The notes beneath the pieces were generated by a model. It was not told where the DNA came from. It was given only the letters and a program-made list of their open reading frames with translations, and did no database searches. A stretch of DNA of 33,967 nt from Oscillospiraceae bacterium (GTDB taxonomy: Bacteria; Bacillota; Clostridia; Oscillospirales; Ruminococcaceae): assembly GCA_029098085.1 (NCBI GenBank), contig JAQXNQ010000061.1, positions 1 through 33,967 of the forward strand. Reading direction: 5' to 3'. Within the stretch, counting starts at the first letter, position 1; every line of letters starts with the position of its first letter. The position numbers and the translations under genes were made by a program. Of this stretch, positions 1 through 11,389 are shown one piece after another.

Positions 1-225
1 CTGTTTGCCGCGTACAAACACCACGCAGATGATGTCCATCATCTCCGCGGTGCGGATCACCTGTGGATTGACCAGGCCCGTGAGCAGCACCGACTGGTCC
101 TTCACAAAGGCCAGCACATCGCTCATCATGTCCGAACCGCAGGCGTCATGCACTTCTATGTCCAGCTGATCCTCGCCGCTGAGCACGGTGGCGTTCAGGA
201 TTCTTGCAACATCTCTGACAGTCAT
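1..225 (-). CDS. DRTGG-domain protein, C-terminus cut by window edge
   Basis: Reverse-strand translation gives MTVRDVARILNATVLSGED... and then LLTGLVNPQVIRTAEMMD and VVFVRGKQ, where the window ends with the frame still open. This matches, from memory, the small (about 110-120 residue) DRTGG-domain proteins found beside clostridial [FeFe]-hydrogenase operons, whose biochemical role is not established. The ORF track misses it because it has no stop in the window. Two in-frame ATGs are possible, at 237 and 225. GGAAAGG sits only one base before the first and about 12 bases before the second; I prefer 225 because family members begin MTVRD-like. It is divergent from the hydrogenase operon, which supports a regulatory or accessory link. 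A promoter for it is visible at 387-415. Confidence 0.75.
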   Translation of the reverse strand, partial: MTVRDVARILNATVLSGEDQLDIEVHDACGSDMMSDVLAFVKDQSVLLTGLVNPQVIRTAEMMDIICVVFVRGKQ

Positions 226-776: not shown

Positions 777-1271
777 ATGGCTAACACAAAAGGTGGCGTT
801 GCGTTCCACGACACTCCTGAACAGGCTGCGAAGCTGCAGGAGATCATCGCAGCGCACAAAAACGACAAGGGCGCACTGATGCCTGTTCTTCAGCAGGCTC
901 AGGAGGTGTACGGCTACCTTCCCATCGAAGTGCAGACCGTCATCGCCGAAGGACTGGAAGTTCCTCTGGAAGAGGTTTACGGCGTCGTGACCTTCTACGC
1001 GCAGTTCTCCCTCTACCCCAAGGGACAGTACAAGATTTCCGTCTGTCTCGGCACTGCCTGCTATGTCAAGGGCTCCGGCGATCTGTATGACCGTCTGCAG
1101 CAGGTACTGGGCATCGGCGGCGGCGAGTGCACCCCCGACGGAAAATTCTCCCTGGAGGCCTGCCGCTGCGTGGGCGCCTGCGGCCTTGCACCCGTCATGA
1201 TGGTCAACGAGGATGTTTACGGCAAGCTGGTTCCCGACGACATTCCGGGCATCCTGGCCAAATACGCCTGA
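777..1271 (+). CDS. hndA: NAD(P)-linked [FeFe]-hydrogenase, NuoE-like 2Fe-2S subunit
   Basis: This 164-residue protein is the NuoE/24-kDa-type subunit of a soluble hydrogenase (HndA in HndABCD, HydC in HydABC). It carries one [2Fe-2S] cluster on a thioredoxin-like fold and is thought to pass electrons within the complex. The helical N-terminus (LQEIIAAHKNDKGALMPVL) and YGYLPIEVQ are family-typical. The four cluster cysteines appear as CLGTAC (C-x4-C) and CRCVGAC (C-x3-C pair). The ATG at 777 has AAGGAGG about seven bases upstream. It is the first gene of a five-gene operon that continues with a HATPase, HndB, HndC and HndD. Length is normal for the family and nothing appears broken. Confidence 0.93.
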   Translation: MANTKGGVAFHDTPEQAAKLQEIIAAHKNDKGALMPVLQQAQEVYGYLPIEVQTVIAEGLEVPLEEVYGVVTFYAQFSLYPKGQYKISVCLGTACYVKGSGDLYDRLQQVLGIGGGECTPDGKFSLEACRCVGACGLAPVMMVNEDVYGKLVPDDIPGILAKYA

Positions 1272-1294
1272 TCTCTCATACGTTGATTGTAAAA

Positions 1295-1301
1295 GGGGGA
1301 G
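1295..1301 (+). promoter_or_regulatory. Ribosome binding site supporting a CTG start
   Basis: GGGGGAG lies six bases before CTG at 1308. An in-frame TAA at 1290-1292 closes the frame upstream, and no ATG, GTG or TTG occurs in frame before 1413, so this site is the best argument for initiation at CTG. Confidence 0.6.
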
Positions 1302-1307
1302 ATTCCG

Positions 1308-1850
1308 CTGCAGGAATTATCGCTGAACGTTCTGGACATCGCCCAGAACTCCATCCGTGCCAACGCGGCCCTGATCACCATTTCCATCAGCGAGAACACC
1401 GCTGAGCACCTGATGGAGATCTCGGTCTCCGACGACGGCTGCGGCATGTCGGAGGAGCAGGTTGCCCATGTGATGGATCCCTTTTTTACCACCCGCACCA
1501 CCCGCAAGGTGGGGCTCGGCGTTCCGCTGTTCCGGATGTCGGCCGAGGCCACCGGCGGCAGCTTCTCCATCCGCTCCAAGCTGGGAGAAGGCACCGTCAC
1601 CACCGCCTCCTATCACACCGATCACCTGGATATGCTCCCTCTGGGAGACATGACCGCCACCATCACCTCTCTGATCTCCGTCAACCCGGATCTGGACTTT
1701 GTCTATACTCGCACGGTGAACGGAAAAAGCTTTACGCTGGACACCAGAGAGCTGCGCACCGTGCTGGAGGGCGTTCCCCTGAATACCCCTGACGTGCTGC
1801 TGTTTATCAGGGATATGATCAACGAAAACACCGCTGAGCTGTCCGCGTGA
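1308..1850 (+). CDS. Stand-alone HATPase (GHKL) domain protein, probable CTG start
   Basis: The reading frame encodes a small GHKL ATPase with no phosphoacceptor domain. From 1308 the product is about 180 residues, beginning LQELSLNVLDIAQNSIRANA, and includes the N-box (the Asn of AQNS). The G1 box is DDGCGMSEEQ and the F/G2 region is DPFFTTR...GLGVPL. The ORF track starts at ATG 1413, which would remove the N-box, so that start is probably wrong. Proteins of this type recur between NuoE- and NuoF-like genes of clostridial hydrogenase operons; I recall them as roughly 180 residues starting MKELSLHILD-like. Their role is unknown, possibly a serine-kinase or anti-sigma-like switch. The C-terminal 60 residues are a separate small region without a recognised motif. 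Confidence 0.8.
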   Translation: MQELSLNVLDIAQNSIRANAALITISISENTAEHLMEISVSDDGCGMSEEQVAHVMDPFFTTRTTRKVGLGVPLFRMSAEATGGSFSIRSKLGEGTVTTASYHTDHLDMLPLGDMTATITSLISVNPDLDFVYTRTVNGKSFTLDTRELRTVLEGVPLNTPDVLLFIRDMINENTAELSA

Positions 1851-1925: not shown

Positions 1926-2291
1926 ATGAAAAGCCTGGAAGAACTCAAAGCAATTCGGGACAAAATGAAGAACACCGTCAATATCCGTGAAGAAAACAGC
2001 GACAACATCCGTGTCGTGGTCGGCATGGCCACCTGCGGCATCGCCGCCGGCGCCCGTCCCGTTCTGACTGCCTTCACCGAAGAGGTTGCCAAACGGAATC
2101 TGCAGAATGTCACTGTCACCCAGACCGGCTGCATCGGCATCTGCCAGTATGAGCCTGTTGTAGAGGTCTATGAGGCCGATGGTACCAAGACCACCTACAT
2201 CAAGATGACCGCCGACAAGGTGGCCAAGGTCGTCACCGATCATCTGGTCAACGGCAGCGTCGTCAAAGAATACACCATCGGAAATCTGTAA
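1926..2291 (+). CDS. hndB: HndB-like [2Fe-2S] thioredoxin-fold ferredoxin
   Basis: This protein of about 121 residues belongs to the (2Fe-2S) ferredoxin family of NADP-reducing hydrogenase subunit HndB. Cluster cysteines are visible as GMATCGIAAGA near the N-terminus and TGCIGICQYEP further on, ahead of VVEVYEADG. It presumably carries one [2Fe-2S] cluster in the electron chain of the hydrogenase. ATGs at 1914 and 1926 are both in frame. GGAAAGGA ends about two bases before the first and 12 before the second, and the second gives the typical MKSLEELKAIR start, so I use 1926. It lies between the HATPase gene and hndC, with a 16-base gap to hndC. Confidence 0.88.
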   Translation: MKSLEELKAIRDKMKNTVNIREENSDNIRVVVGMATCGIAAGARPVLTAFTEEVAKRNLQNVTVTQTGCIGICQYEPVVEVYEADGTKTTYIKMTADKVAKVVTDHLVNGSVVKEYTIGNL

Positions 2292-2306: not shown

Positions 2307-4100
2307 ATGTATCGTTCCCACGTACTTATCTGCGGCGGCACCGGATGCACTTCTTCCGGCAGTCAGCAGATCGCTGAGACCCTCGAAAGCGAGCTCCGCA
2401 AAAACGGACTCGAGGAAGAGGTAAAAGTTGTAAGAACCGGCTGCTTCGGCCTGTGTGCTCTTGGCCCCATCATGATCGTCTATCCCGAGGGCTGCTTCTA
2501 TTCCGAAGTCAAGGTGGACGACATCCCCGAGATCGTCAGCGAGCACCTGCTCAAGGGCCGTATTGTCAAACGGCTGCTGTACTCCGAGACCGTTTCTCAG
2601 GAAGACAGCAACGTCAAGTCCCTGAATGAAACCCAGTTCTATGCCAAGCAGCACCGCGTTGCTCTGAGAAACTGCGGTGTTATCAACCCCGAAAACATCG
2701 ACGAGTACATCGGTATGGACGGCTACCAGGCTCTGGGCAAGGTTCTGACCGAAATGACTCCCCAGCAGGTCATCGACGAGATCCTGGCCTCCGGTCTGCG
2801 CGGACGCGGCGGCGGCGGATTCCCCACCGGCAGAAAATGGTCTCTGGCTGCGGTCAACGCCGCTCCTCAGAAGTATGTATGCTGCAACGCTGACGAAGGC
2901 GACCCCGGCGCATTCATGGACCGCTCCATTCTGGAAGGCGACCCCCATGTGGTGCTGGAAGCCATGGCCATCGCCGGCTATGCCATCGGTGCGACCCAGG
3001 GCTACATCTATGTCCGCGCCGAGTATCCCATCGCCGTGCATCGTCTGCAGGTTGCCATCAAGCAGGCCCGCGAATACGGTCTGCTGGGCAAGAACATCTT
3101 CGACACCGGCTTTGACTTCGACGTCGAGCTGCGGCTGGGCGCCGGCGCTTTTGTCTGCGGCGAGGAAACCGCTCTGATGACCTCCATCGAGGGCCACCGC
3201 GGTGAGCCCAGACCCCGTCCTCCCTTCCCTGCTGTCAAGGGTCTGTTTGAAAGCCCCACCATCCTGAACAACGTGGAAACCTACGCCAACGTTCCCCAGA
3301 TCATCCTCAAAGGCGCCCAGTGGTTCGCCTCCATGGGCACTGAGAAGTCCAAGGGCACCAAGGTCTTCGCTCTGGGCGGCAAGATCAAGAACACCGGTCT
3401 GGTCGAGGTTCCCATGGGCACTCCTCTGAGAGAGATCATCGAGGACATCGGCGGCGGCATTCCTAATGGAAAGAAGTTCAAGGCTGCCCAGACCGGCGGT
3501 CCTTCCGGCGGCTGCATCCCCGCTTCCCTGATCGACACCCCCATCGACTATGACAACCTGATCGCCATCGGCTCCATGATGGGCTCCGGCGGCCTGATTG
3601 TCATGGACGAGGACACCTGCATGGTGGATATCGCCAAATTCTTCCTGGAATTTACCGTAGACGAGTCCTGCGGCAAATGTACTCCCTGCCGTGTCGGCAC
3701 CAAGCGCCTCTATGAGATGCTGGACAAGATCACCCGCGGCACCGCCACCATGGAAGACCTGGACAAGATGGAAGAGCTCTGCTACTACATCAAGAACAAC
3801 TCCCTGTGCGGCCTGGGCCAGACTGCACCCAACCCCGTTCTGTCCACTCTGAGATACTTCCGTGATGAATACGAAGCCCACATCAAGGAAAAGCGCTGCC
3901 CCGCCGGCGTCTGCAAGCATCTGATGCAGATCACCATTCTGGCGGACAAGTGCAAGGGCTGCACCCTGTGCGCCAGAACCTGCCCTGTCGGCGCCATTGA
4001 GGGCACCGTCAAGAATCCTCACAAGGTCAACCAGGACAAGTGCATCAAGTGCGGCGCCTGCATGGAAAAGTGCAAGTTCGGCGCGATCATCAAGAAGTAA
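2307..4100 (+). CDS. hndC: Hydrogenase NuoF-like flavoprotein subunit (FMN, NAD(P)H site)
   Basis: At 597 residues this is the NuoF-type subunit that oxidises or reduces NAD(P)H at an FMN. Domain order: an N-terminal thioredoxin-like [2Fe-2S] domain (CGGTGCTSSGS, later RTGCFGLCALGP), then the NADH/FMN-binding domain from about residue 165 (GRGGGGFPTGRKW, ADEGDPGAFMDR). An SLBB-type segment follows, then the [4Fe-4S] NuoF C-terminal motif ESCGKCTPCRVG. At the end are two ferredoxin-type [4Fe-4S] motifs, CKGCTLCARTCPVGAI and CIKCGACMEKCKFGAI. This is the layout of HndC/HydB in electron-bifurcating or NADP-reducing hydrogenases. AGGAGG precedes ATG 2307. All cluster motifs look intact. Whether NAD or NADP is used cannot be read from sequence alone. 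Confidence 0.95.
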   Translation: MYRSHVLICGGTGCTSSGSQQIAETLESELRKNGLEEEVKVVRTGCFGLCALGPIMIVYPEGCFYSEVKVDDIPEIVSEHLLKGRIVKRLLYSETVSQEDSNVKSLNETQFYAKQHRVALRNCGVINPENIDEYIGMDGYQALGKVLTEMTPQQVIDEILASGLRGRGGGGFPTGRKWSLAAVNAAPQKYVCCNADEGDPGAFMDRSILEGDPHVVLEAMAIAGYAIGATQGYIYVRAEYPIAVHRLQVAIKQAREYGLLGKNIFDTGFDFDVELRLGAGAFVCGEETALMTSIEGHRGEPRPRPPFPAVKGLFESPTILNNVETYANVPQIILKGAQWFASMGTEKSKGTKVFALGGKIKNTGLVEVPMGTPLREIIEDIGGGIPNGKKFKAAQTGGPSGGCIPASLIDTPIDYDNLIAIGSMMGSGGLIVMDEDTCMVDIAKFFLEFTVDESCGKCTPCRVGTKRLYEMLDKITRGTATMEDLDKMEELCYYIKNNSLCGLGQTAPNPVLSTLRYFRDEYEAHIKEKRCPAGVCKHLMQITILADKCKGCTLCARTCPVGAIEGTVKNPHKVNQDKCIKCGACMEKCKFGAIIKK

Positions 4101-4116: not shown

Positions 4117-5859
4117 ATGATCAATTTGAAAATCAACAACATCCCTGTGTCGGTGGAGCCCGGAACCACCATCCTGGAAGCTGCCCGCCAGCTGGGGATC
4201 AACATTCCTACCCTCTGCTACCTGAAGGACATCAATGAGATCGGCGCCTGCCGTATCTGCACCGTTGAGGTCAAGGGTGCCCGCGGCCTGCTGCCTGCCT
4301 GCGTTTACCCCGTCAATGAGGGCATGGAAGTATTCACCAACACCAAGAAGGTGCTGGATGCCAGAAAGACCAACCTGGAACTGCTCCTGTCGGTTCACAA
4401 CCGCAAGTGCCTGTCCTGCCCCAGAAGCGGCAGCTGCGAATTCCAGAAGCTCTGCAACGACTACAACATCACCGCCGAGGATGCCTTTGAGGGCGTCAAG
4501 AACGATTATGAGATCGACGATACCGCCCCTCACATGATCCGCGACAACTCCAAGTGCGTTCTCTGCCGCCGCTGCGTCGCCGTCTGCCGCAAATGGCAGG
4601 ATGTAGGCGTCATCGGCCCCAACGAGCGCGGCTTCAACACCCATATCGGCTGTGCCTTTGACACCGAGCTGGGCAGCGTTTCCTGCGTCTCCTGCGGTCA
4701 GTGCATCGTCGCCTGCCCCACCGGCGCTCTCCAGGAAAAGGACAGCACCGAGGCTGTCTGGGCGGCTCTCTCCGATCCCACCAAGACCGTCATCGTGCAG
4801 ACCGCTCCCGCCGTCCGCGCTGGCCTGGGTGAAGCCTTCGGCTATCCCATGGGCACCGATGTGGAAGGCAAGATGGTCGCCGCTCTCCGCCGCATCGGCT
4901 TTGCCAAGGTGTTCGACACCAACTTCGGCGCTGACCTGACCATCATGGAAGAGGCCAACGAGCTGGTAGAGCGGATCCAGAACGGCGGCGTGCTGCCCAT
5001 GATTACCTCCTGCTCTCCCGGCTGGGTCAAGTACTGTGAGCACTACTTCCCCGACCTGATCCCCAACCTTTCCTCCTGCAAGTCTCCCCAGCAGATGTTT
5101 GGCGCCATCGCCAAGACCTGGTACGCCAAGCAGATCGGCGTGGATCCCAAGGATATGGTCGTTGTTTCGGTCATGCCCTGCACCGCCAAGAAGTTTGAGA
5201 TCGGCCGTCCCGATCAGTCTGCTGCCGGCGTTCCCGACGTGGACATCTCCATCACCACCCGTGAGCTGGTCAAGATGATCCATGCTGCCGGTCTGGAGTT
5301 TACTGCTCTGCCTGACGAAGAGTTCGACGCTCCTCTGGGCCTGGATACCGGCGCCGGCGTCATCTTCGGCGCAACCGGCGGCGTTATGGAAGCAGCTCTC
5401 CGTACTGCCAAGGACTGGCTCACCGGCCAGGACAACCCCGTTGAAGCGCTTGATTATCAGGCGATCCGCGGCACCGAAGGCATCAAGGAAGCTTCCTTTG
5501 AAATCGGCGGCCTGACCCTGAAGGTAGCTGTCTGCTCCGGTCTGGTCAACGCCAAGAAGGTGCTGAAGGCCGTTCAGGCCGGCACTGCTGACTACCAGTT
5601 CATCGAAATCATGGCCTGCCCCGGCGGCTGCGTCAACGGCGGCGGTCAGCCCTTCCAGCCCGCTTCTGTCCGCAACTTCGTGGACATCCGTGCGGAGCGC
5701 GCCAAGGCCCTGTACTCCAACGACGAGGGCAATACCCTGCGCAAGTCTCATGACAATCCTGCCATCAAGAAGCTGTACGAGGAGTTCCTCGGCAAGCCCG
5801 GCAGCCACACCGCTCATGAGATTCTGCATACCTCCTATGTGGCCCGTCCCAAATATTGA
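4117..5859 (+). CDS. hndD: [FeFe]-hydrogenase catalytic subunit (HydA/HndD)
   Basis: This 580-residue group A [FeFe]-hydrogenase reversibly reduces protons to H2 at the H-cluster. The order is: N-terminal plant-type [2Fe-2S] domain (GACRICTVEV), a His/Cys-ligated [4Fe-4S] site (HNRKCLSCPRSGSC), two ferredoxin [4Fe-4S] motifs (CVLCRRCVAVC, CVSCGQCIVAC), then the H domain. H-cluster motifs are TSCSPGW (Cys299), MPCTAKKFE (Cys355) and EIMACPGGCVNGGGQP (Cys501, Cys505). The spacing almost equals that of Clostridium pasteurianus CpI as I recall it. The L1 motif has Ser where classic enzymes have the second Cys of TSCCP. It is the last gene of the operon, 16 bases after hndC, and is followed by a strong terminator. 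Confidence 0.96.
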   Translation: MINLKINNIPVSVEPGTTILEAARQLGINIPTLCYLKDINEIGACRICTVEVKGARGLLPACVYPVNEGMEVFTNTKKVLDARKTNLELLLSVHNRKCLSCPRSGSCEFQKLCNDYNITAEDAFEGVKNDYEIDDTAPHMIRDNSKCVLCRRCVAVCRKWQDVGVIGPNERGFNTHIGCAFDTELGSVSCVSCGQCIVACPTGALQEKDSTEAVWAALSDPTKTVIVQTAPAVRAGLGEAFGYPMGTDVEGKMVAALRRIGFAKVFDTNFGADLTIMEEANELVERIQNGGVLPMITSCSPGWVKYCEHYFPDLIPNLSSCKSPQQMFGAIAKTWYAKQIGVDPKDMVVVSVMPCTAKKFEIGRPDQSAAGVPDVDISITTRELVKMIHAAGLEFTALPDEEFDAPLGLDTGAGVIFGATGGVMEAALRTAKDWLTGQDNPVEALDYQAIRGTEGIKEASFEIGGLTLKVAVCSGLVNAKKVLKAVQAGTADYQFIEIMACPGGCVNGGGQPFQPASVRNFVDIRAERAKALYSNDEGNTLRKSHDNPAIKKLYEEFLGKPGSHTAHEILHTSYVARPKY

Positions 5860-10426: not shown

Positions 10427-11389
10427 TTATTCTGTCAGCGCAGCCGGTATGCCATCCCGGGCAAACCAGACGTCCTCCACCTGAAACACCCGGCCGTTCA
10501 GATAGGACAGAAGGCATTCCTCCCGGAAATCAAAGACCAGCTTGTAAGAATAGAGAGCCTGACAGTCAAAGCCCAGGGCCTTTTCCTTCTGATTTTTGCC
10601 ATACTTGCCGTCTCCCACCAGCGGGCAGCCGATATAGGCCATGTGGGCCCGGATCTGGTGGGTGCGGCCGGTCTTCAGATCCACCTCCACCAGCGAGTAT
10701 TTCCCATTGGTGGTCAGCACCCGGTAACGGGTGATCATGGTGCGGGCGCCGGGGCGGGGTTTGTCGAAGATCACGGCCCGGTTTTCTTTCTCGTCCTTCA
10801 TATGATAGTGGGTCAGGGTGGCCTCCCGGGGACGGGGACAGCCCTTGACCAGACAGAGATAGTACTTGTGCAGCTCCCGATTTTTGATGCAGTCGTTGAG
10901 CAGCCGCAGGGCGGGGGCGTTCTTGGCCACGATGACGATGCCGCCGGTGTTGCGGTCGATGCGGTTGCAGAGGGCGGGCGCAAAGGAAGCCTCCGCATCG
11001 GGGTCATACTCCCCCTTGTCGTAGAGATAGTGCTGCACCCGGTTGATCAGGGTGTCCACCGTCTCTCCCTCGTCCTCGTGGACGATCAGACCCTGAGGCT
11101 TATCGCAGAGCAGGATGTTTTCGTCCTCGTACACGACCTTCACCTGTCCGCTGGCCTGCAGAAAGGCGGGGCGCTCCTGCGCCTCAAAGAATTCGTCGCC
11201 GATATACAGCGTCACCCGGTCGCCGGGCTGCAGGCGAGTGCTGATCTCGCTCCGCTTGCCGTTGACCTTGATCCGCTTGAGCCGAAGATACTTGTACATC
11301 AGGCTCTTGGGCAGGGCACGGACCGCCTTCTGCAGGAACTTGTCCAGACGCTGCCCGGCGTCGTTTTCGTTGATCACAAATTCTCTCAC
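10427..11389 (-). CDS. RluA-family pseudouridine synthase with S4 domain
   Basis: This 320-residue enzyme isomerises uridine to pseudouridine in rRNA. Residues about 13-65 are an S4 RNA-binding domain (AGQRLDKFLQK, KRIKVNGKR, LQPGDRVTLYI). The catalytic domain includes CDKPQGLIVH, the active-site Asp145 in NRIDRNTGG, and the conserved GRTHQIRAHM and LVGDGKYG segments. This layout is that of RluC/RluD-type enzymes, but the exact target uridines cannot be assigned. The usual HRLDxxTSG reads NRIDRNTGG, a variant I have seen in Firmicutes. The start is GTG at 11389 and overlaps the stop of the upstream small gene as GTGA, so the two are translationally coupled. Confidence 0.92.
   Translation of the reverse strand: MREFVINENDAGQRLDKFLQKAVRALPKSLMYKYLRLKRIKVNGKRSEISTRLQPGDRVTLYIGDEFFEAQERPAFLQASGQVKVVYEDENILLCDKPQGLIVHEDEGETVDTLINRVQHYLYDKGEYDPDAEASFAPALCNRIDRNTGGIVIVAKNAPALRLLNDCIKNRELHKYYLCLVKGCPRPREATLTHYHMKDEKENRAVIFDKPRPGARTMITRYRVLTTNGKYSLVEVDLKTGRTHQIRAHMAYIGCPLVGDGKYGKNQKEKALGFDCQALYSYKLVFDFREECLLSYLNGRVFQVEDVWFARDGIPAALTE

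Follow-up and report, generated by a model that had tools for sequence, protein, structure and literature searches.

A putative CTG start codon in the GHKL ATPase gene of an [FeFe] hydrogenase operon from an Oscillospiraceae bacterium

According to figures cited in PMC11497404, CUG makes up 0.024% of bacterial start codons, and its output in a study cited there was 0.86% of that of AUG. Switches from an ancestral AUG to CUG were reconstructed in 2 of 61,358 cases (PMC5622118). The CUG of Caulobacter dnaA, together with an upstream Shine–Dalgarno site, gave initiation complexes in vitro but was unused in vivo (PMC8443254). The gene described here resembles the natural CUG starts (PMC11497404; PMC5622118) in having CTG for ATG at a conserved start and a Shine–Dalgarno site at normal distance, and differs from them in being a case from one genome, known from sequence alone.

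The closest described proteins, by both sequence and structure matches, are the GHKL ATPase domains of histidine kinases (WalK, KinB, ZraS), with which the product shares the ATP-binding fold, the N-box Asn, and the DxGxG motif. Unlike these kinases, it stands alone as a domain, has a C-terminal part of its own, and lacks a dimerisation or phosphoacceptor domain. In Oscillospiraceae and relatives, the orthologues encoded in [FeFe] hydrogenase operons (loci L007, L088, and others) are of equal length and carry near-identical residues from codon 2 onwards (MQELSLNVLDIAQNS), and the position after a NuoE-like gene is shared with the closest relatives; the difference is CTG in place of ATG or GTG, which, among the genomes scanned, is found in the window genome only.

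The hydrogenase operon and its ATPase

The window, i.e., the whole stretch of DNA analysed (33,967 nucleotides), is the entire contig C61 of a fragmented 2.77 Mb assembly (447 contigs, 86.6% complete, 6.5% contaminated). The operon is encoded in the following order:

777–1271, plus strand: NuoE-like subunit gene, directly upstream of the HATPase gene (PF01257, 3.7e-52)
1308–1850, plus strand: HATPase gene from CTG, 180 residues, orthologues of which begin at codon 1308 (Pfam HATPase_c, 4e-15)
1926–2291, plus strand: [2Fe-2S] ferredoxin-like gene (NCBIfam fdxn_Clost, 2.1e-12, below cut-off)
2307–4100, plus strand: NuoF-like subunit gene (TIGR01959, 4.1e-153)
4117–5859, plus strand: NADH-dependent [FeFe] hydrogenase, group A6 (NF040763, 909 bits against a cut-off of 765)

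All frames of the operon are intact and dN/dS is low. By comparison of starts, the ferredoxin-like gene begins in relatives at the equivalent of ATG 1926 and not of ATG 1914. The HATPase gene is a single-copy gene in the genome, with no paralogue as a substitute, and was present in 13 of 14 genomes from the genus; the one genome lacking it is 67% complete.

By predicted fold and by motif, the protein is a stand-alone GHKL ATPase, for which binding or hydrolysis of ATP would be predicted. It matched PF02518 with 56.6 bits (curated cut-off 26.4), and both the N-box Asn and the DxGxG (G1) motif of this family are present. Its place among the genes of the hydrogenase makes a role in regulating this enzyme, or in assembling it, most likely; a literature search for HATPases in hydrogenase operons returned nothing informative. 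Divergently from the operon, positions 1–225 (minus strand) encode the start of a DRTGG-type protein, whose 75 residues by themselves gave no Pfam match. In the closest relative (locus L128), two genes lie divergently upstream on the minus strand, a DRTGG-domain gene (226–795, PF07085) followed by a second, anti-sigma-like HATPase (620–1111, PF13581). Such a DRTGG-type gene neighbourhood would fit a regulatory module.

Position of the start codon

The open frame of the HATPase gene spans 1293–1850, and its 5′ end comprises the following elements:

1290–1292, plus strand: in-frame TAA closing the frame upstream
1293–1301, plus strand: Shine–Dalgarno site AAGGGGGAG, separated by six bases from the CTG codon (pairing energy with the 16S tail −11.3 kcal/mol)
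1308–1310, plus strand: CTG codon where 92 of 98 distinct orthologues have an ATG (90) or GTG (2) start, the other six having ATG one codon upstream
1311–1412, plus strand: codons 2–35, which would be lost with a start at ATG 1413, encoding the N-box helix (N14) and strand 22–30 (identified from dN/dS, invariant residues, and the structure model)
1413–1415, plus strand: first in-frame ATG, an internal Met (residue 36), 35 codons downstream of CTG 1308

The preliminary description had placed the start at CTG 1308, behind a stop at 1290 and a strong ribosome binding site, and had located the N-box Asn between the CTG and the first ATG. These sequence features were reproduced: TAA is followed by AAG GGG GAG ATT CCG and then by CTG, the GGGGGAG motif ends at 1301, and, with CTG as codon 1, the N-box Asn is encoded by codon 14. 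Between the stop codon and position 1413, the frame contains no ATG, GTG, or TTG. A canonical start further upstream was rejected as the frame is shut at 1290, and ATT 1302 was rejected as a start since it abuts the Shine–Dalgarno site with zero spacing.

The first genome scan yielded 80 relatives whose match began at query residue 1. In 76 of these, ATG took the place of the CTG; the other 4 carried ATG TTA, with the ATG one codon further upstream. Each of the 12 congeneric relatives that carry the gene has ATG, and the broader family set contained two orthologues with GTG as the start codon. After removal of duplicates, 98 distinct orthologues besides the window's own were retained. As the earlier description had proposed that orthologues be aligned and their codons compared at this position, exact starts were tallied: 92/98 begin at codon 1308 (90 with ATG, two with GTG), six have ATG one codon earlier, and none begins at the equivalent of ATG 1413. 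From this comparison of sequences, codon 1308 is, with near certainty, the start site of the gene. The claim that the HATPase starts at CTG thus holds as to position, while that the CTG is real and used is a point we infer.

A pattern of CTG plus the first HATPase residues, scanned against the class (391 genomes) and the family (398 genomes), matched only the window genome and two others (G102, G189). Both were discarded as further CTG starts, because an ATG that overlaps the upstream TGA immediately precedes the CTG; consequently, no CTG-started HATPase without a preceding ATG was found outside the window genome in the 391 class and 398 family genomes. Some Lachnospiraceae orthologues (L052, L063, L072, L079, and other loci) begin with ATG TTA CC, which puts their start one codon further upstream. 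The HATPase ATG of many relatives overlaps or adjoins the stop of the NuoE-like gene, which suggests translational coupling; in the window's genus, a short spacer and an own ribosome site mostly precede the gene.

When 4,839 window positions were sampled, the leader of CTG 1308 ranked within the top 2.1% for strength of pairing, and none of the operon's 98 internal in-frame CTGs has a leader that pairs as strongly (best −9.8 kcal/mol). ATG 1413 has no Shine–Dalgarno site (−3.0 kcal/mol). In the closest relative, which starts with ATG, the Shine–Dalgarno site is stronger (−16.9 kcal/mol), so the site in the window, good but not unusual, does not look like a special compensation for CTG. A hairpin (GATTCC-GCTGCA-GGAATT, 1301–1318, −6.1 kcal/mol) places CTG 1308 in its loop and does not form in the equivalent stretch of two relatives; compared with shuffles over 43 nt, it was not significant (z = −1.15).

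Conservation and fold of codons 2–35

The residues upstream of 1413, about 35 of which had been described as conserved, proved to be so. Against the two nearest relatives, dN/dS was 0.19–0.22 for codons 2–35 and 0.11–0.26 for the whole gene, and by this measure purifying selection is acting on the segment. The N-box Asn (N14) occurs in 99/99 orthologues including the window's own, and L6, N7, D10, Q13, N14, S15, A18, and A20 are invariant in an alignment of 23 proteins, as are D42, G44, and G46 of the DxGxG (G1) motif. The structure model (pLDDT 88.6) shows a helix at residues 6–17 bearing N14 and a strand at 22–30. According to this model, a protein begun at 1413 would lack the N-box helix, the first long strand, and part of the sheet; with that start the Pfam score drops from 56.6 to 44.2 bits.

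Going by the ATG/GTG/TTG rule alone, gene finders limited to these codons would probably lose the first 35 amino acids. The N-terminal peptide of the CTG-started product, as read from the sequence, would be (M)QELSLNVLDIAQNSIR.

Weighing the readings of the CTG codon

The best explanation, to which we assign a probability of about 0.62, would be that a single recent A-to-C change turned an ancestral ATG into CTG in the lineage of the window, and that ribosomes initiate at CUG 1308 on AAGGGGGAG, presumably with fMet and at reduced efficiency, to give a full-length HATPase of 180 residues. In its favour are the CTG at the orthologous start, without a canonical in-frame start nearby, and the usable Shine–Dalgarno site at normal spacing. 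The reality of C at 1308 and the use of CUG in the cell are the parts of this explanation that we infer. Points against the use of CUG are that no CTG start was found in the other scanned genomes, the low output of CUG, the Shine–Dalgarno site weaker than that of the closest relative, the Caulobacter dnaA precedent (PMC8443254), and the fragmented and partly contaminated assembly. The main rival, less probable though still to be taken seriously, is a consensus or assembly error or a mixing of strains, in which case the true base would be A and the start an ordinary ATG. CTG is one base away from ATG, every relative has ATG or GTG here or an adjacent ATG, and the genome, with its contamination, is a single genome of its species (no second one was found among the genomes scanned); the prior for a consensus error would also be similar in size to that for a true AUG-to-CUG change. 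Against an error stand the intact frames and low dN/dS of the operon and the result of a wider, modest comparison of starts between 442 kb of the window genome (G000) and 1.12 Mb of its closest relative, in which inspection of the flagged cases among 64 closed orthologue pairs left no other lost start. The comparison thus gives no sign of frequent errors, and on this modest sample general use of CUG in the genome was rejected. An altered initiator tRNA was likewise rejected, as the one tRNA-Met found has anticodon CAT and an ordinary stem (GGGCTCATAACCC). Elsewhere in the window, two minus-strand genes (at 11389 and 13613) carry GTG in place of the ATG of the closest relatives; switches to weaker starts thus occur at other genes, though to canonical codons.

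It is unlikely that a real CTG is a start-loss mutation, with little or no translation of the gene and its incipient decay in this lineage. By the figures in PMC11497404, CUG initiates poorly, and the nonsynonymous branch of codons 2–35 in the window genome (0.150) is about twice that of two relatives (0.070 and 0.063), which, on 34 codons, is too little to argue decay; for the rest of the gene, both relatives have longer branches than the window genome (0.022), and the frame is intact, the Shine–Dalgarno site is kept, and the gene is retained across the genus. Translation from ATG 1413, which a default annotation would predict and which would yield 145 residues, is scarcely credible: this codon is the first ATG, GTG, or TTG in frame, but no orthologue examined uses it, its leader has almost no 16S pairing, and the segment upstream is conserved coding sequence that includes the modelled N-box helix and a strand. 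That the change from ATG to CTG is adaptive, a weak start keeping the ATP-binding protein at low dose relative to the hydrogenase subunits, possibly with the hairpin presenting CUG in its loop, appears quite improbable; compensation for the weak codon by the Shine–Dalgarno site was not seen.

The CTG at the HATPase start would belong to a class of starts that is rare but documented; a wrong single base in the assembly is the possible alternative. The finding is mostly a correction of annotation within ordinary biology, and its biological weight would be small unless the CTG were confirmed and shown to tune dosage. It provides an orthologue-anchored example of a start missed by gene finders that consider only ATG, GTG, and TTG, where a truncated annotation would drop the N-box and the ATPase of this operon would look defective.
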